DNA of 64,000 bases, taken from positions 1 to 64,000 of the forward strand of contig CAADGK010000099.1 of assembly GCA_900696515.1 (NCBI GenBank). Reading direction: 5' to 3'. Source of the stretch: an uncultured Nitrosospira sp. GTDB lineage: Bacteria > Nitrospirota > Nitrospiria > Nitrospirales > Nitrospiraceae. The notes beneath the pieces are model-generated. The model made no database searches, had not been told where the DNA came from, and saw nothing but the letters and a program-made list of their open reading frames with translations. The position numbers and the translations under genes were made by a program. Positions 5,236 through 19,345 of the stretch are shown piece after piece (position 1 is the first letter of the stretch; every line of letters starts with the position of its first letter).

Positions 5236-7893
5236 TTATTGACTGATCGATGATTCGTTTGTGTCTATTCTAGCCATCCGTTGTAGCTCGGCGAGACGGT
5301 TCAGAGCATCGAGTGGGGTTAGTGAGAATAGGTCGATCTGTTTAACCTCCTCTATCAAGGGGTGGGGTTGAGGAAGCGCGGGGGAAGCGGATTGTGATGG
5401 AACGGTAGCAGAGACGTGAGCGGACGCCTCGGGTCGTTCAAGTTGCGATAAGACTGCTTGAGCACGATGAACCACTTCCGGAGGAAGCCCTGCAAGTTTG
5501 GCCACGTGAATGCCATAACTACGATCTGCCTTCCCGGCAACGATTTTTCTCAGAAATACAATATCTCCATCGCGCTCCTGCACGGCCACACGATAGTTCT
5601 TAATCCCCGTGCGTTGAGATTCCAATTGAGTCATTTCGTGATAGTGTGTGGCAAAGAGTGTGCGCGCGCCCAGCTTGGTGCAGTCATGGATATACTCCGC
5701 TATGGCCCACGCAAGGCTGAGACCATCGTAGGTGCTGGTCCCGCGGCCAATTTCATCGAGTAAGAGCAAACTCCGCTGCGTGGCGTTCCTCAGAATATGG
5801 GATGTTTCAACCATTTCAACCATGAAGGTGCTTTGCCCTGCAGCCAGATTGTCAGATGCACCTACTCTGGTGAAAATGCGATCGGCTATGCCGATGTGAG
5901 CCTCTGTTGCCGGGACAAAGCTTCCTACCTGAGCCATTAACACGATCAAGGCTACCTGCCGAAGATAGGTGCTCTTGCCGGCCATATTGGGGCCGGTGAT
6001 GATGAGCAGTCGATCCGTTCCAAGATCCAGTTTCGAGTCGTTCGGCACAAAAACGGTGTCGTGACAGAGCCGTTCGACGACGGGATGTCGGCCGTCTTTT
6101 ATCAGAAGCGTACCCCCGTCCGTGACCGCCGGCTTTGCGTAGCGGTAGAGGGCTGCTGCCTCGGCTAAACCGGCTAGGACATCGACCAGCGCCAACAATG
6201 TCGCCATCCTGTCCAGTCGATGGGTCTCTGTTGCCAGTCGAGAACGAAGAGTCGTGAAGGCTTCCTGTTCGGAGGCGAGGAGTTTCACATCGGCACCGAT
6301 CACCCGTTGTTCCAGTTCCTGTAGTTCAGCCGTCGTAAACCGCTCTGCATTGACGAGTGTTTGCTTTCGAATGTAGTCCGGTGGGACTCGGTTCAGGTTG
6401 GTTTTGGTAATCTCAATGTAGTAGCCGAACACCTGATTGTAGCGCACCTTCAACGACTCAATTCCGGTTCGTTCTCGCTCTCGACTTTCCAGTGCGGCAA
6501 TCCATTCCTTCCCTTCCTTGCTGGCTTTTCGAAGTTCGTCGATCTCAGGAGCATAGCCTTCTTGAATGATATTCCCGTCACGTAACGAATGCGGCGCATC
6601 CGGCCGGATCGATCGTTGAATCAGATCGTACAGATCCTCAGCCTGATCCCATGTTTCAAAGGACTCCGCCAATAGTCGGCTGTGAAGTGATGTCAACTGG
6701 GCGGAGATCTCAGGCAGGGCGGCAAGAGACTGCTTTAACGCCAGCAATTCACGCGGGTTGGCTAAACCAAGGGTGATACGCGTGCCCAACCGGGCAATAT
6801 CTTGAACCTCCCGTAACGCTCTGCGTAGGGCTGTTCGTACGAACAAACTTTCCTTAAGTTCCTCGACGGCATCAAGGCGTGCTTGGATTCGCTCGCAATG
6901 CAACAAAGGCATCACCAACCACTGGCGCAACAGCCGACATCCCATTGCAGTAACCGTGTGGTCCAATACGGATAGCAGCGTTAAAGGACCAGTTGCCTCC
7001 GTCTGCTCCTTGGCAGACAGGGGTTTCAGGAGTTCCAGATTTCGAATGGTCGTCGCATCGAGATGCATGATCTCGTTGTTCCCACGAACCGATAATCGGC
7101 GGATATGATCCAACGGCACGGTCGGCTGAGTCTCACGGAAATAGTCCAGCACCGCACCGGCTGCACCAAGAGCGGCTGGGAGTCCAGGACATCCCAGACT
7201 TTCAAGTGAGTTGCAGCGAAAGTGACTGGTCAATATCTGTGTGGCACGTTGTAGCTCAAATGCAGCCGCCGGACGTGCACATAGGCGCGGGCCTGTAATC
7301 TGTTTGAGCCATCGCGCGCTCTGGCTATCGAGGCCGGTCGGGAAGATCAGTTCCCGGGGTTCGAGGCGAGAGAGGTCATTCTGAGCCTGGCTCACTGCGT
7401 CTGATCCTCGAAACTCCGTCAGCCAGAACTCACCTGTGGACACCTCGAGATTGGCAAGTCCGATCCGCATGCTGAAATCGGCATCGGGATGAACGGCGAT
7501 GGCAGCCAGATAGTTGAGCTCTCCCGGGATCAGGAACTCGGTGTCCACTAATGTCCCGGGTGTGTAGAGTCGGACGACCTCGCGCCGCACGAGACCCTTG
7601 GCGGACTTGGGGTCCTCCACTTGCTCACATAAGGCGACCAATCGTCCGGCGCTGAGCAATTTCGCAATGTAGCCAGTCGCAGAATGGTACGGGACGCCGC
7701 ACAGCGGGATCGGCTGAACACTGTTCTTGTCTCGGGAGGTCAAGGCAATGGAAAGGAGCCGGGACGCTTCCAGGGCGTCTTCGTAGAACATCTCGTAAAA
7801 ATCTCCGACACGGAAAAATAAAATCGCGTCAGGGTATCCCTGCTTGATGTCTCGGAACTGGCGCATGAGAGGACTGAGAGCCGTCTCACTCAT
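5236..7893 (-). CDS. mutS: DNA mismatch repair protein MutS
   Basis: Recognises mismatches and small loops and starts methyl-independent or MutL-dependent repair. The track ORF has 96 extra residues that are merely a read-through of the upstream gene region; the ATG at 7893 gives 885 residues starting MSETALSP and matches family length. The mismatch-wedge motif F-x-E is FYE at residues 32-34 (GDFYEMFYEDA). Walker A is GPNMAGKST at about 634, Walker B LLLLDEIGRG follows, then the STYDGLSLAWA segment. The C-terminal tail (LIEEVKQIDLFSLTPLDALN) is the usual dimer/tetramer tail. Its start overlaps the stop of the upstream membrane-protein gene by 8 bases, so translation is probably coupled. No mutL is in the window. 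Confidence 0.97.
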   Translation of the reverse strand: MSETALSPLMRQFRDIKQGYPDAILFFRVGDFYEMFYEDALEASRLLSIALTSRDKNSVQPIPLCGVPYHSATGYIAKLLSAGRLVALCEQVEDPKSAKGLVRREVVRLYTPGTLVDTEFLIPGELNYLAAIAVHPDADFSMRIGLANLEVSTGEFWLTEFRGSDAVSQAQNDLSRLEPRELIFPTGLDSQSARWLKQITGPRLCARPAAAFELQRATQILTSHFRCNSLESLGCPGLPAALGAAGAVLDYFRETQPTVPLDHIRRLSVRGNNEIMHLDATTIRNLELLKPLSAKEQTEATGPLTLLSVLDHTVTAMGCRLLRQWLVMPLLHCERIQARLDAVEELKESLFVRTALRRALREVQDIARLGTRITLGLANPRELLALKQSLAALPEISAQLTSLHSRLLAESFETWDQAEDLYDLIQRSIRPDAPHSLRDGNIIQEGYAPEIDELRKASKEGKEWIAALESRERERTGIESLKVRYNQVFGYYIEITKTNLNRVPPDYIRKQTLVNAERFTTAELQELEQRVIGADVKLLASEQEAFTTLRSRLATETHRLDRMATLLALVDVLAGLAEAAALYRYAKPAVTDGGTLLIKDGRHPVVERLCHDTVFVPNDSKLDLGTDRLLIITGPNMAGKSTYLRQVALIVLMAQVGSFVPATEAHIGIADRIFTRVGASDNLAAGQSTFMVEMVETSHILRNATQRSLLLLDEIGRGTSTYDGLSLAWAIAEYIHDCTKLGARTLFATHYHEMTQLESQRTGIKNYRVAVQERDGDIVFLRKIVAGKADRSYGIHVAKLAGLPPEVVHRAQAVLSQLERPEASAHVSATVPSQSASPALPQPHPLIEEVKQIDLFSLTPLDALNRLAELQRMARIDTNESSISQ

Positions 7894-11440: not shown

Positions 11441-12637
11441 ATGGGGTTGGGCGACGGGTTTTATCGAATCAAGCGATTGCCTCCGTATGTCTTCGCGCAA
11501 GTTCAAGCGCTCAAGCTGGAGGCACGGCAGCGGGGTGAGGACATCATCGACTTCGGCATGGGGAATCCCGATCAACCCACGCCCGCGCACATCGTCGAAA
11601 AGATGATCGAGGCCGCTCGTAAAGCGAAGAACCATCGTTATTCCGCGTCACGAGGGATCACCAAGCTCCGGCATGCCATTTGCGGATGGTACAAGCGGAA
11701 CTACGACGTCGATCTCGACCCGGAGACGGAAGCGATCGTCACGATTGGGTCAAAGGAAGGCCTAGCCCACCTGGCCCTGGCCATGATCGGTCCTGGCGAT
11801 GTGGTACTGACCCCGACTCCGACCTATCCGATCCACATGTATAGCTTCATTATCGCCGGGGGCGAGGTTCGCGGCATAGAGCTCCGTCAGGACAGTGATT
11901 TTTTTGAAGACCTCACGCGTGTCTATCGGCAAACCTTTCCGAGGCCTAAGATTCTGGTGATCAATTTCCCGCACAACCCCACGACGGCGGTCGCTGATCT
12001 TGGATTTTTCAAGAAGATCGTGGCGTTTGCCAAGGAACACAATGTCATTGTCATCCATGACCTTGCGTATGCCGATCTGGTGTTTGACGGGTACAAGGCT
12101 CCGAGTTTTCTCCAAGTTCCAGGCGCAAAGGATTGCGGAGTAGAGTTTTATACCCTTTCCAAAGCCTACAATATGCCGGGCTGGCGCGTCGGGTTCTGTG
12201 TCGGTAATCGAGAGGTCGTCGGAGCCTTGGCGAAGATCAAAAGTTACCTCGATTACGGCATTTTCCAGCCCATTCAGATTGCGAGCGTGATTGCACTCAA
12301 CGGTCCACAGGACTGTGTCAAAGAAACCGTGCATCGATATCAAAAACGCCGCGATGTGTTGGTCGGCGGACTGAACCGGATCGGGTGGCAGGTCGCAAAG
12401 CCGTTGGCTACGATGTTTGTATGGGCGCGCATTCCTTTGCCGTATCGCCACATGGGGTCGTTGGAGTTTTCGAAACTCCTGCTCAAGGAAGCCAAAGTCG
12501 CGGTCTCGCCGGGGATCGGATTCGGCGAAGGGGGAGATGAGTACGTGCGGTTTGGACTGGTGGAGAATGAACACCGCACACGCCAAGCGGTGCGTGGAAT
12601 CCGCAAAGCCCTCAAGCTTGAGGGAGGCGAGGAATGA
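11441..12637 (+). CDS. PLP-dependent class I/II aminotransferase (AlaC / LL-DAP aminotransferase-like)
   Basis: 398-residue fold-type I aminotransferase. The PLP lysine is K241 in [15 protein letters not shown]; other landmarks are [12 protein letters not shown] near the N-terminus, NFPHNPTT and HDLAYADL. The sequence resembles the AlaC (glutamate-pyruvate) and LL-diaminopimelate aminotransferase groups; substrate cannot be fixed from sequence. As first gene of an operon with hom, thrC and lysC, a role in lysine (diaminopimelate) or alanine synthesis is plausible. An AAGGA site precedes the ATG. Its stop overlaps the hom start by 4 bases. Confidence 0.9.
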
Positions 12638-13947
12638 AGTCTCGGATCGGAGTGGGGATCATCGGGTTCGGGACGGTCGGCACGGGCGTCGCCAAAACAC
12701 TGCTCAACAATACCGATCTCATCCGCCGAAGGGTCGGCGTGCCCATCGAAGTCGTTCGAGTGGCAGACCTGGATGTCGTCAAGGATCGCGGGGTGACGAT
12801 GGCTCCAGGGGTTCTCACGACCGATGCCAAGCAAGTGTTGTCGGATCCTGCTGTCGATATCGTGATCGAATTGATCGGCGGATACGATACGGCGAAGCGA
12901 ATCATAATGGAAGCCATCACTGCGGGGAAGCATGTCGCTACGGCGAATAAGGCGCTCCTGGCGCTGCACGGCGAAGAAATTTTTGCCGCCGCGACAAGGC
13001 ACGGTGTGGAACTGGGGTTTGAGGCCAGCGTGGGCGGCGGAATCCCCGTGCTTCGTGCATTGACGGAAGGGCTGGCCGGCAATAGGATCGAGTCCATTTA
13101 CGGCATCATCAACGGGACATCCAACTATATTTTGTCGAGAATGACCCGCGAAGGGCATGACTTCCAGGCGGTGCTCACGGAGGCCCAGCAGGCAGGCTAT
13201 GCGGAAGCGGATCCCACGTTCGACGTTGCCGGAGTCGATTCCGCGCACAAACTGGCCATTCTCGTGAATCTTGCGTACGGCACTCCCCTCAACTTCAAGG
13301 AAATTTATACGGAAGGGATCACGAACATCACGCCGACCGATATCGCGTACGCCAAACAGTTCGGTTGCACGATCAAGCTGTTGGGCATCGCGAAGTCTGT
13401 GAACGGAGCAATCGAAGCGCGGGTGCATCCCACGATGCTTCCGTCCACCTCGCCCATTGCACAAGTCGAAGATGTGTACAATGCCATTCAACTCGTCGGG
13501 GATGCCGTCGGCGATGTCGTGCTCTACGGGCGCGGGGCCGGATCCATGCCGACCGGAAGCGCGGTGGTCAGCGATGTGATCGCCATTGGGCGCAATATTC
13601 TCAAAGGGGCGATCGGGAGGGTGCCGGTTGCCTCCTTTCAACAGGATCATCGGCGACCGTTGCGGCTTCTGGCCATGGAAGAAATCAGCTCACTTTATTA
13701 TCTGCGGTTTACGGTGGTGGATCGGCCCGGAGTGTTGGCGCAGATCGCGGGGGAACTCGGGCGTTGCGGGATCAGCATCTCCTCGATGGTTCAACAAGGG
13801 CGACGAGAGGGACAGACTGTTCCTGTCGTCATTAAGACCCATATGGCCAAAGAGCGGGATGTGCAAACCGCGCTTCGGGAAATCAACAGGCAACCGTTCG
13901 TAGCCGAACCGACAAGACTGATCCGTGTGGAAGGCAGAGACGAATAA
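12634..13947 (+). CDS. hom: Homoserine dehydrogenase
   Basis: Reduces aspartate semialdehyde to homoserine with NAD(P)H, the branch step to threonine and methionine. 437 residues. N-terminal Rossmann nucleotide site [13 protein letters not shown]; catalytic region with [11 protein letters not shown] and [19 protein letters not shown]-terminal ACT domain from about 350 ([19 protein letters not shown]), the usual site of threonine feedback. This is the monofunctional form, not fused to aspartokinase. Coupled by ATGA overlap to the aminotransferase and followed after three bases by thrC. Confidence 0.96.
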
Positions 13948-13950
13948 CCG

Positions 13951-15009
13951 ATGAATCGTTGGCGAGGCGTCATAGAGGAATACCGTAAATTCCTCCCTGT
14001 TACGGAAAAGACCCCCATCATCAGCTTGGGAGAAGGAAATACCCCGCTGATTCGCGCCGCGCGATTGGCCAAGGCCATTGCGCCGGGGATTGAACTCTAT
14101 CTCAAGTTCGAAGGAGTCAATCCTACCGGATCGTTCAAGGATCGCGGGATGACCTTCGCTATCTCCAAAGCCGTGGAGGGCGGGGCTCGGGCCGTCATGT
14201 GTGCGTCGACGGGGAATACATCAGCATCCGCGGCCGCCTATGGAGCTCGGGCTGGGTTGTCGGTATACGTGTTGATCCCGGCCGGCAAAATCGCAATGGG
14301 GAAGTTGTCGCAGGCGATGATGCATCAGGCCACGGTCATTCAGATCGAGGGGAACTTTGATCAGGCTCTGACGCTTGTCAAGGACCTCTCGGCCTCACTT
14401 CGCATTGAGTTGGTGAACTCCGTAAACCCGTTCAGGATTGAAGGGCAGAAAACCGCCGCCTTTGAGGTTTGCGATCAGCTCGGCGATGCTCCGGCCGTTC
14501 ACGTCTTGCCGGTCGGAAACGCAGGGAATATCACGGCCTATTGGAAGGGCTATTCCGAATATCGTGCCGCCAGTCAGATCACGCGACTGCCCCGCATGAT
14601 GGGGTTTCAAGCGGCAGGTGCGGCGCCCATCGTATTGGGGAAGATCGTCGAGCAACCGCAAACCATTGCAACGGCCATTCGGATCGGCAATCCCGCGAGT
14701 TGGTCCTCGGCATTGAACGCTGTCGAGGAGTCCAGCGGCGCGATCGATATGGTGACGGACGAGGAGATTCTTCAGGCCTATACACTGGTGGCCTCCACGG
14801 AAGGGGTCTTCTGCGAGCCGGCCTCGGCTGCCTCAGTGGCCGGCGTGGCCAAGCTTCATCGCAGCAAGGTTTTACGGGAAGGTGACACGGTGGTATGCAC
14901 TCTGACGGGACACGGGCTGAAAGATGCCGATACCGCCATCTCCGTGTCCAAACAACCACTCACTGTCAAGGCGACGCGCGAGGATGTCGCCCGTTTATTG
15001 AACGTGTGA
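13951..15009 (+). CDS. thrC: Threonine synthase
   Basis: PLP enzyme turning O-phosphohomoserine into threonine. 352 residues, the short bacterial class. PLP lysine is K63 in [12 protein letters not shown]; the phosphate cradle is [15 protein letters not shown]. The substrate requires a homoserine kinase, but no GHMP-type thrB is present in the cluster; the next gene is an ApgM-like protein instead (see that entry). Three bases separate it from hom. Confidence 0.96.
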
Positions 15010-15025: not shown

Positions 15026-16231
15026 ATGAAATATGTGATCGTGCATGCCGGTGGAGTAGCGGACCACCCACAGGCAGAACTTAATGGTCGAACACCGCTG
15101 CAAGCGGCAACTACCCCCCACCTCGATCAGCTTGCGCAAACCGGAGAGCTGGGACAACTGGTCATACCGGGCGAGGGTATTCGCCACGGAGGCGGATTGC
15201 TCGGTGCGGCGATTCTCGGCTATGACCCGAAGAAATACTATCAAGGGCCAGGTCCGCTGGAAGCGGCAAGTCTGGGCGTCTCGGTGACGGAACACGACGT
15301 GGTCTATCGGTGCACGATGGTCACGCTGCGTCCGGAGGGCGGCAAGGGCGCGGAGATCAAGAAATTGGGGCCGAACGTCCTCATGGACGATGCGACCGCC
15401 GGCTTGATCGAAACCGAGGAGGCTCGTGAGCTGTTGGAAGCGATCAACGAACAGCTCGGGTCTGAAACCATTCAGTTCTATCCTGGCGCCGGTCATCGTC
15501 ATCTCATGGTCTGGGTCAATGGGAAGCCGCGGGCCATCTGTAACGATCCGCAATCCTTTCTCGGTCAATCCATCGCGGACGCCCTCCCCACAGGGGATGG
15601 GGCAGACATTCTCCGCAAGCTCATGGATGCCGCGCATGTGATCATGCGTGATCATCCGGTCAACGACGAACGGATTGCCGAGGGGAAGAAGCCGGCAAAT
15701 TGTGTGTGGCTGTGGGGGGAAGGGCGAGCCGTCATGTGGCCGAGCTTGACGGAAAAATACGACATCACCGGGGCTGTTGTGGCGACCAGCGATGTCTATC
15801 GTGGCGTCGGGATCTGCGCCGGCCTTGAGGCGGTCGATCCCGAACGACTCGCCGACGGCGATCTTCGCACCCGGGCGTCCGTGGCGCTGGCTGAGTTCGC
15901 CAAGAAAGATTTCGTGTATGTCCATGCGAGGTTGACGGACGAGATCATCCATGGCGCCGACATCAAGGCCAAGGTGCGCGCGATCGAAGAGTTGGATCAG
16001 CACTTAGTCGGTCCGCTTGTCGAAGGCCTGGCCAAACAAGGGCCCTATCGGTTCCTGGTCGTGTGTGAACATGGACGAGGGGCGAACGGTCAGCCGTTCT
16101 ATACGTTCGGCGAGGGAGGCAAGAAGGCCGGATCAGCCGGCCGTCGCTTCACCGAGGTGGATGCGCGGGCCTCCGAGATGCCGGCCCGTGATGCCACAAA
16201 ATTCGTCAACAAATTTTTCTCCAAAAGCTGA
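15026..16231 (+). CDS. ApgM-like (alkaline phosphatase superfamily) protein, candidate homoserine kinase replacement
   Basis: 401 residues from ATG 15026; the track's GTG at 15017 adds three. Overall sequence follows archaeal-type cofactor-independent phosphoglycerate mutase ([53 protein letters not shown]). A subgroup of this family found beside threonine genes has been proposed to be a homoserine kinase in genomes lacking thrB, which fits the position between thrC and lysC. Compared with my memory of the family, the metal ligand Asp of the N-terminal GDGMAD is Gly9 (HAGGVAD), the nucleophile Ser of PGSDVAN is Gly56 (HGGGLLG), and the late PDH motif is CEH. The Asp and His of DEIIH remain. 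Mutase activity is therefore unlikely; the true activity is open. Confidence 0.8.
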
Positions 16232-16236
16232 GCATC

Positions 16237-17460
16237 GTGGCGCTGATCGTTCAGAAATACGGTGGCACGTCGGTCGGGACGATCGAGCGCATCCGGCGGG
16301 TGGCCGATCGGGTCGAAAAAACCCATCGAGAAGGCAATCACGTCGTCGTTGTGCTGTCCGCGATGAGCGGGGAGACAGACCGTCTGATTAAACTTGCCCA
16401 CGAAGTGACCGCGAATCCCGATGATCGGGAGATGGACATGCTGCTCTCAACCGGAGAGCGGGTCACCATTGCCTTGTTGGCGATGGAATTGCGTGGCCGG
16501 GGCCTTGATGCCCGTTCCTTTACGGGGCGACAGGTGGGCATCATGACCGACAGCGCCCATACCAAGGCTCGGATCGCACGTGTGACGTCCGGACGGCTCC
16601 GCGAGGCTCTGGATCAAGGCGTCGTGCCTGTGGTGGCGGGCTTTCAAGGGATCAATGAACGGTCGGATGTGACGACGCTGGGCCGAGGTGGGTCCGATCT
16701 TTCCGCCGTTGCGGTGGCGGCGGCACTCAAAGCCGATCGCTGCATTATCTTCACCGATGTCGACGGGGTCTACACAGCTGATCCCAACATCGTCCCGGCA
16801 GCCAAACGCATCGACAAAATTTCCTATGAAGAGATGCTCGAAATGGCCAGTCTCGGCGCCAAAGTGCTGCAGACCAGATCGGTGGAATTCGCGGCCAAGT
16901 TCAACGTGCCGGTCGAAGTGAATTCCAGCTTCAAAGAAGGAAAGGGAACGCTCGTGACGAAGGAAGATACGGATATGGAAGCGGCGGCGGTCTCAGGAGT
17001 CACGGGAGACCGGAACCAGGCGAAGATCACGATTATCGGTGTCCCGGACAAGCCTGGTATTGCCGCCAGGATCTTTGGTCCTGTGGCAGAGGCGCATATC
17101 AATGTCGACATGATCATCCAGAACATCAGTCAGGCGGCCCTGACGGACCTCTCTTTTACCGTCCCCCGGGCGGATCTGAAGAAAGCCGTGCCGCTCATTC
17201 AAGGCGTGGCAAAGGACATCGACGCCAAGTCGGTTTCAGTCACGGAAGCCATTGCGAAAGTCTCGCTCATCGGCGTTGGCATGCGGTCACACTCCGGTGT
17301 GGCGGCTAAGATGTTCAACGTGCTGTCGCGCGAGGGGGTCAACATCATGATGATCAGCACGTCGGAGATCAAAATCTCCTGCGTGGTAGAAGAGAAGTAC
17401 CTCGAACTGGCCATGCGCTCCCTCCATTCGGCGTTCGGGCTGGATCAAGTGCAGTCCTGA
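16237..17460 (+). CDS. lysC: Aspartate kinase
   Basis: Phosphorylates aspartate, the first step to lysine, threonine and methionine. 407 residues, monofunctional. The kinase domain begins with KYGGTSVG at residues 6-13 and contains [13 protein letters not shown]; two ACT domains follow (from about 265, [17 protein letters not shown], and about 345, [17 protein letters not shown]), the allosteric sites for lysine and threonine. Start codon GTG, five bases after the previous stop. It is the last gene of the operon begun at 11441. Confidence 0.96.
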
Positions 17461-17695: not shown

Positions 17696-19345
17696 ATGGC
17701 TAAAAACACCAAACAATCACGTGTTTCCCGCACTGTCCGTGAACGGATTCCAGTTTCCGTGAACCAACCATCCACCGAACGGGCGGAGAAATTAGAAATC
17801 TATGACACCACATTGCGTGATGGCGCGCAGGCGGAAGACGTCAGTTTCTCTGCGGAAGACAAGGTGCTGATCGCGCAGAAGCTGGACAGTCTCGGCGTAC
17901 ATTTTATTGAAGGCGGATGGCCCGGCGCGAACCCGAAAGATATTGAATTCTTTCGGATGATCAAGACCATTCCTCTGAAGCATGCGGACGTGATCGCATT
18001 CGGGTCGACGAGAAAAGCCAGCAACACAGTCCGCAAGGATCCGAATCTTCAAGCGTTACTCGGCGCAGACACGAAGATCATCACGCTCTTCGGGAAGACC
18101 TGGTCGCTCCACGTCACCGATGCGCTTGGTATCTCCCTCCACAAGAATCTTGAGCTGATCGGCGACTCCATCGCTTATCTCCGCGGAAAAGGACGCCGCG
18201 TCTTCTACGATGCGGAGCATTTCTTCGACGGGTATAAGACCAACCCGGACTATGCGTTGCGCACGATCAGGAAAGCGGTGGAGTCGGGTGCGGAGCGAGT
18301 GATTCTTTGTGACACTAACGGGGGCGCGATGCCGTGGGAAATCCGTGAGATCTGCGGTGTGGTGCAGCGTGAGTGTGGGGTACCGCTCGGTATCCATGCC
18401 CATAACGATTGTGAAATGGCCGTGGCGAACTCCCTGGTGGCGATCGAGATGGGCATTCAGCAGGTACAGGGGACCATCAATGGCATCGGGGAGCGCTGCG
18501 GAAACGCCAACCTGTGCTCGATTATTCCGAATCTCGAGCTGAAAATGAAACGCCAGGCCTTGACCAATACCTTGAGCCATCTCAAGGATGTGTCCGGGTT
18601 TGTGACGGAAATTGCCAATCTCATGCCCAATAAGCATCAGCCGTATGTCGGAGATTCCGCGTTTGCCCATAAAGGCGGAGTGCACATTCACGCGGTCCTG
18701 AAGAACTCGGCTACCTATGAGCATATCGATCCGGCTCGCGTCGGCAATCGGCAGCGGATGTTGATCTCCGACTATGGAGGACGCAGCGGCCTGCTCGACA
18801 AAATCGAAGCCTATGGGATCAGGCTTTCGAAGAACCATGCCAAAGTCGATGAGCTGGTCCATACCTTGAAGGAACGGGAAAGCCAGGGCTATCAGTTCGA
18901 AGGGGCCGAGGGCTCATTTGAATTGTTGATGCGAAAGGCGATGGGGAGCCACACGTCGTCGTTTCGATTGCTCGGGTTTCGGGTGATCGTTGAGAAAAAA
19001 CAGGAGGATGGATCCCTGCTTTCCGAAGCGACGGTGATGGTCAAGGTCGGGGAGGCGGTCGAGCATACCGCGGCGATCGGGGCCGGGCCGGTCAATGCGC
19101 TGGATCATGCGTTACGCAAAGCCTTGGAAAAGTTTTATCCGCAGCTTCGAGAAGTGAAACTGCTCGACTACAAGGTCCGGGTGTTGGCGGCAAACCGGGG
19201 GACCGGATCAAAAGTTCGGGTCTTAATTGAGTCGGGTGATCACAAAGACAAATGGGGAACGGTGGGGGTCTCTGAAAATATCATTGAAGCGACATGGCAA
19301 GCTCTTGTCGATAGTATCGAATATAAGCTGCTGTCCAAAAACTAG
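17696..19345 (+). CDS. cimA: (R)-citramalate synthase
   Basis: Condenses acetyl-CoA and pyruvate to citramalate, the threonine-independent entry to isoleucine. 549 residues, the long CimA class. N-terminal HMGL/TIM barrel with YDTTLRDGAQAEDVSF, HAHNDCEMAVANSL and GTINGIGERCGNAN; C-terminal LeuA-type dimer/allosteric domain from about 415. The first roughly 30 residues (KQSRVSRTVRERIPVS) are an extension before the conserved LEIYDTTLRDG. It is 235 bases after lysC; a weak TTGACT box lies in this gap but no good -10 box follows. Confidence 0.94.
   Translation: MAKNTKQSRVSRTVRERIPVSVNQPSTERAEKLEIYDTTLRDGAQAEDVSFSAEDKVLIAQKLDSLGVHFIEGGWPGANPKDIEFFRMIKTIPLKHADVIAFGSTRKASNTVRKDPNLQALLGADTKIITLFGKTWSLHVTDALGISLHKNLELIGDSIAYLRGKGRRVFYDAEHFFDGYKTNPDYALRTIRKAVESGAERVILCDTNGGAMPWEIREICGVVQRECGVPLGIHAHNDCEMAVANSLVAIEMGIQQVQGTINGIGERCGNANLCSIIPNLELKMKRQALTNTLSHLKDVSGFVTEIANLMPNKHQPYVGDSAFAHKGGVHIHAVLKNSATYEHIDPARVGNRQRMLISDYGGRSGLLDKIEAYGIRLSKNHAKVDELVHTLKERESQGYQFEGAEGSFELLMRKAMGSHTSSFRLLGFRVIVEKKQEDGSLLSEATVMVKVGEAVEHTAAIGAGPVNALDHALRKALEKFYPQLREVKLLDYKVRVLAANRGTGSKVRVLIESGDHKDKWGTVGVSENIIEATWQALVDSIEYKLLSKN

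Follow-up and report, generated by a model that had tools for sequence, protein, structure and literature searches.

Gene organization of the locus

The window, that is, the whole stretch of 64,000 nucleotides analyzed here, belongs to a genome of 4.6 Mb whose completeness is given as 99.99%. It carries an operon with the gene order aminotransferase, hom, thrC, ApgM-like gene, lysC and citramalate synthase, without thrB. An earlier note on this DNA had read hom, thrC, ApgM-like and lysC in this order, likewise without thrB, and both the ORF and the gene order are confirmed. The relevant features are:

12634..13947, + strand: hom, homoserine dehydrogenase with an ACT domain (NF004976, 542 bits; PF00742; PF01842)
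13951..15009, + strand: thrC, threonine synthase (TIGR00260, 324 bits; closest solved structures, the threonine synthases 2zsj and 1uim)
15017, + strand: in-frame GTG, an alternative start of the ApgM/ThrB2-like ORF (three additional residues)
15026..16231, + strand: ApgM/ThrB2-like protein with a degenerate catalytic site (401 aa; ATG at 15026)
15242..15793, + strand: insertion (lid) domain of this protein, residues about 73-256, its most conserved part (boundaries approximate)
16237..17460, + strand: lysC, aspartate kinase (NF005155, 640 bits)
17696..19345, + strand: cimA, citramalate synthase (TIGR00977, 747 bits)

The ApgM/ThrB2-like gene is the least conserved of the operon. An artefact of start codon or frame was rejected, since dozens of genomes carry the same ORF. 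Its product passes the cut-off of the ApgM family TIGR00306 (335.6 bits against 320) and fails that of the ThrB2 family TIGR02535 (320.9 bits against 446.3). The AF2 model (pLDDT 91.1, pTM 0.89) finds its best fold matches in the archaeal ApgM structures 3idd, 3kd8 and 2zkt, and the nearest named relatives by sequence are from Nitrospira. Intact ThrB2 copies of other Nitrospirota occupy the same place in the operon, and in a tree obtained by a quick method the sequences of the order Nitrospirales form one clade next to these intact copies (SH-aLRT 96). Synteny and tree together establish the descent of the protein from the family once proposed as homoserine kinase, into which the earlier note had fitted it. 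An intact ThrB2, 36% identical to the window protein, was also seen in a record titled Nitrospira sp. (K_DeepCast_150m; L186), whose genome is probably misnamed or misbinned.

The neighboring ThrC is canonical: the NSxNP(F/Y)R motif, which we take to be its phosphate-binding motif, is present in 77 of 79 copies, so that phosphohomoserine is still needed. A ThrC of changed substrate was rejected, as this motif is kept and just two columns (111 and 153) are group-specific. Each of the eleven order or class genomes searched with ThrC, whether it has thrB or not, also contains a second threonine-synthase-like paralogue (about 413 aa, about 36-39% identical; e.g., G065:C7:128363-129370 and G163:C38:68488-69504, among others).

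Degeneration of the catalytic site

Examination of the seven ligand columns in an alignment of 133 relatives (positions counted from the ATG at 15026) gives GGDHEHG for the window protein, as opposed to DSDHDHH in the family. The corresponding codons are:

15050..15052, + strand: Gly9, at the column of a metal-2 Asp (alignment and sequence; also visible against the solved ApgM 2zkt)
15191..15193, + strand: Gly56, at the column of the nucleophilic Ser (alignment and sequence; also visible against 2zkt)
15938..15940, + strand: Asp305, metal-1 Asp, kept (alignment)
15950..15952, + strand: His309, metal-1 His, kept (alignment)
16067..16069, + strand: Glu348, at the column of a metal-2 Asp (alignment)
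16070..16072, + strand: His349, metal-2 His, kept (alignment)
16079..16081, + strand: Gly352, aligned with the lost second metal-1 His (the alignment is gappy here, and the call leans on the absence of the entire HTxxPVP block)

The window protein consequently contains neither the catalytic Ser and metal ligands of ApgM (TIGR00306) nor the two-metal site and nucleophile (DSDHDHH) of ThrB2 (TIGR02535). The replacements by Gly9, Gly56 and Glu348, named in the earlier note, are borne out by the relatives, the first two also by 2zkt. The note also described the Asp and His of the first metal site as kept, which is only two-thirds true: Asp305 and His309 are present, but the third metal-1 ligand, the His of the HTxxPVP block, is gone as well.

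The comparison was extended to the order set, which comprises 84 sequences placed there on the basis of group code, identity and tree (f1, f2, f3, f5, f9, g2, g13 and g15 are group codes from the genome search). All seven ligands are present in 47 of the 49 relatives outside the order, as opposed to none of its 84 members, and both exceptions outside it are class-mates that own a thrB. Because nearly all outside relatives are intact, the loss is not a matter of chance. One to five ligands are kept in family f1 (just one to three in several of its genera), one to three in f2 and five in f3 (DGDHNHH, DTDHNHH), with no set of remaining ligands common to f1. The genus group g2, which includes N. 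defluvii, keeps five of the seven, Ser56 among them. Within the genus, Asp9 has generally become Gly and the last His has generally disappeared, while the change of Ser56 to Gly is variable and many members keep the Ser. Other f1 genera with the same operon lack His309, His349 or both. On the quick tree, Asp9, Ser56, His309 and His349 underwent seven to nine changes each, as if these positions had been released from constraint. Residues that are new and common to the whole order are Pro75, His157, Asp174 and Lys112-Lys113.

Constraint on the rest of the protein

The remainder of the protein is under purifying selection. Within Nitrospira, omega is about 0.04-0.13 at dS values from 0.7 to above 1, as estimated by a simple pairwise method in which dS is partly saturated in the wider pairs; this upholds the view that the active site changed without decay of the gene. 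The lowest dN among the parts is that of the insertion domain in most comparisons. Of the columns invariant in the family, those that at least 90% of the order's members retain number 10 of 17 in the N-terminal part, 23 of 36 in the insertion domain and 7 of 31 in the C-terminal half, which holds five of the ligands. The other conserved blocks, described as intact in the earlier note, are so in the insertion domain and not in the C-terminal half. Arg158, His159, Asn213, Arg216, Trp228 and His300 are nearly invariant in the order, and a ligand pocket may therefore persist. Among 39 other genomes of the genus that were drawn, 38 have a match, and none of the matches listed contains stops; the exception (G257) is also without a close thrC match, probably because its assembly lacks the locus. 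Catalytic residues that are gone from a protein otherwise under purifying selection represent the pattern of a pseudoenzyme.

Distribution and loss of the gene

Many of the genomes compared are metagenome-assembled. Across the phylum, 233 of the 256 genomes without thrB have an ApgM/ThrB2-like match, as opposed to 8 of the 40 with thrB, a near-complementary distribution (Fisher p about 9e-21, relatedness ignored). ThrB2 and thrB are likewise complementary in gut genomes (PMC9026213).

The gene has disappeared from part of the order. In five checked genomes of the f2 genera g13 and g15, which belong to the same order as the window's genome, hom, thrC and lysC follow one another with no gene between, and thrB was not found in the genomes of these two genera. 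Besides IspE, those checked show one other GHMP match at the most, which in G179 is a heptose-kinase-like gene. In genome G206, several stops and a frameshift have turned the ThrB2-like gene between intact thrC and lysC into a pseudogene (L090, about 6118-7311), and the congeners G137 and G243 keep the gene open.

Degenerate copies also occur in class-mates that own a thrB, both in f9 (NSDPDHP) and in f5 (no ligand left in a 390-aa ORF). These copies in two class-mate lineages are open ThrB2-like ORFs that have degenerated independently, and they lie in the same operon place in G131 (L091, 3636-4805, - strand) and G183 (L061, 4001-5221, + strand). Both genomes have a GHMP thrB of their own, and the ORFs offer a natural counterpart to what is seen in Nitrospira. 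Among the thrB-bearing lineages of the class all stages are seen, from an intact ThrB2 (G119) through partly degenerate (G183) and fully degenerate but open (G131) to deleted copies (others). This suggests that the ThrB2 site is lost once another kinase takes over, and that in Nitrospirales the other kinase is one that is not recognised.

Search for a homoserine kinase

In many prototrophs, homoserine kinase is an acknowledged gap (PMC5764234, PMC7311316); in Desulfovibrio a relative of shikimate kinase serves in this role (PMC5764234). The profile search of the window's genome revealed no GHMP homoserine kinase (TIGR00191) above cut-off, no match to the APH-type enzyme (TIGR00938) at E 0.001, and no Desulfovibrio-type enzyme (NF040667) above the cut-off of 197 bits. 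Of its two GHMP genes, one is IspE (57 bits to thrB, 221 to ispE) and the other is heptose-7-phosphate-kinase-like; its sole gene of shikimate-kinase fold, which adjoins an aroE-like gene, scores 101 bits to NF040667. The searches covered known kinase families, and the shikimate-kinase type was searched for in the window's genome only; as all were negative there, none of these families accounts for the homoserine kinase. The earlier note was thus right that a kinase is missing beside thrC. It had also called for a search for a second phosphoglycerate mutase, and an ordinary GpmA was found on the same contig (TIGR01258, 272 bits against a cut-off of 81.7), with no match to gpmI in the genome.

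Two further candidates were rejected. A single strong APH protein is present in nearly all order members searched. It is AmgK-like, occurs also in thrB-bearing class-mates, and forms a pair with a MurU-like gene, in the window's genome as in others. A GHMP paralogue was rejected because in eight genomes of the order IspE is the one and only GHMP match. The pair of AmgK-like kinase and MurU-like uridylyltransferase (L209, contig C39 of the window's own genome, 406-2415, - strand) is present across the order and suggests recycling of peptidoglycan sugars in Nitrospira. Another cluster of the same genome (L003, contig C143, 155-2964, - strand), comprising nucleotidyltransferase-like, heptose-7-phosphate-kinase-like GHMP and epimerase-like genes, probably serves surface-sugar synthesis.

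Interpretation

We favor, with somewhat better than even confidence, the view that a former ThrB2 persists in the aspartate/threonine pathway in a non-catalytic role, beside a kinase that lies outside the recognised homoserine kinases. According to this scheme, ThrB2, which in Nitrospirota is the proposed homoserine kinase derived from ApgM, would have lost metal-dependent phosphotransfer in Nitrospirales, a loss to which the residues themselves point, and would have been retained as a partner or sensor. The conserved insertion domain would most likely bind an amino acid, with or without a phosphate group, and the protein would act on, or scaffold, a neighboring enzyme (Hom, ThrC or LysC). The phosphohomoserine used by ThrC would be supplied either by a kinase that belongs to none of the known homoserine kinase families or by a known kinase that has an additional activity. 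Support may be seen in the apparent dispensability of the gene where hom and thrC are kept (the g13 and g15 genomes and the G206 pseudogene). On the other side, the order-wide Pro75, His157, Asp174 and Lys112-Lys113 could be the mark of a rebuilt site, the genera without the gene may have gained an unrelated kinase of their own, and, since no alternative kinase was found, parsimony could still favor the ApgM/ThrB2-like gene as the kinase in f1.

The closest competitor, which we consider unlikely, is that the window protein is the homoserine kinase of Nitrospira and works by a changed mechanism, with direct transfer, no phosphoserine and one metal or none. It would agree with the operon place, the near-complementarity with thrB, the failure to find known homoserine kinases in the window's genome, the newly conserved residues and the five ligands, Ser56 included, of g2. 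In a specific form, to which we give a rather low probability, the substrate-binding domain would be kept and the site rebuilt for direct transfer by Pro75, His157, Asp174 and Lys112-113. The earlier note had proposed a mechanism other than phosphoserine transfer, and the comparative evidence speaks against it: the gene is deleted in order genera that have intact hom and thrC but no thrB, it is a pseudogene in G206, the ligands left in it vary among the genera of a single family, and lineages with thrB show degeneration as well. Moreover, BT2402, an intact member of TIGR02535 that retains its zinc sites (PMC9765024), failed to complement an E. coli thrB strain (PMC7311316). The absence of thrB points to another kinase at least as much as to the window protein.

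Other metal-dependent chemistry, such as that of a phosphatase or transfer to another acceptor, appears very unlikely. Chemistry is widely varied among members of the alkaline phosphatase superfamily, and the four metal-binding residues remaining in the window protein and its close relatives (Asp305, His309, Glu348 and His349) could form a one-metal site; however, His309, His349 or both are gone in genera of the same family with the same operon, and the nucleophile is Gly in many sequences. We give little credence to a relic on its way to loss, kept by inertia only. Complete loss in g13 and g15, the pseudogene in G206 and the low conservation relative to the other operon genes are in line with it, but the low omega over such dS values in the genus and the open frames in all matches listed already disfavor it for f1; for f2 it may be true. 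A working phosphoglycerate mutase, suggested by the TIGR00306 score and the ApgM fold, is scarcely credible, as nucleophile and metal ligands are gone and the GpmA of the genome makes such activity unneeded.

With the metal site lost, the gene kept in most members and the known enzymes apparently absent, this step of threonine synthesis is unexplained in Nitrospira and its order. Among the papers searched there was none on a Nitrospira homoserine kinase or on the window protein. The automatic annotation as phosphoglycerate mutase is wrong for Nitrospirales. ThrB2 is a putative candidate to fill the homoserine kinase gap: phosphate transfer to homoserine was proposed for TIGR02535, and BT2402 mutants need threonine (PMC7311316). 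Nitrospirales, in which active site or gene is lost, hom and thrC are kept and no known kinase appears, form a natural test: either it exposes a new homoserine kinase in the nitrifying Nitrospira, or it shows that the assumed mode of action of ThrB2 is not the real one.

Comparison with known systems

The GHMP ThrB, the TIGR00938 ThrB and the NF040667 kinase (PMC5764234) perform the step that is missing here, and their folds are unrelated to that of the window protein. Like the ApgM proteins 2zkt, 3idd and 3kd8, the window protein has the fold and the insertion domain and passes the TIGR00306 cut-off; unlike them, it has lost the active-site residues, and its genome has a GpmA. With TIGR02535/ThrB2 proteins such as BT2402 it shares homology over the full length, an operon place adjacent to hom and thrC and a genome without thrB, whereas BT2402 keeps the zinc sites and the window protein, at 321 bits against a cut-off of 446, is without the metal and nucleophile residues. 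Its nearest intact kin by tree and place are the ThrB2 proteins of other Nitrospirota (L062-L072, and L060 of the class-mate G119), which are mostly syntenic with the window gene and, in contrast to it, carry DSDHDHH; those tested pass the TIGR02535 cut-off.
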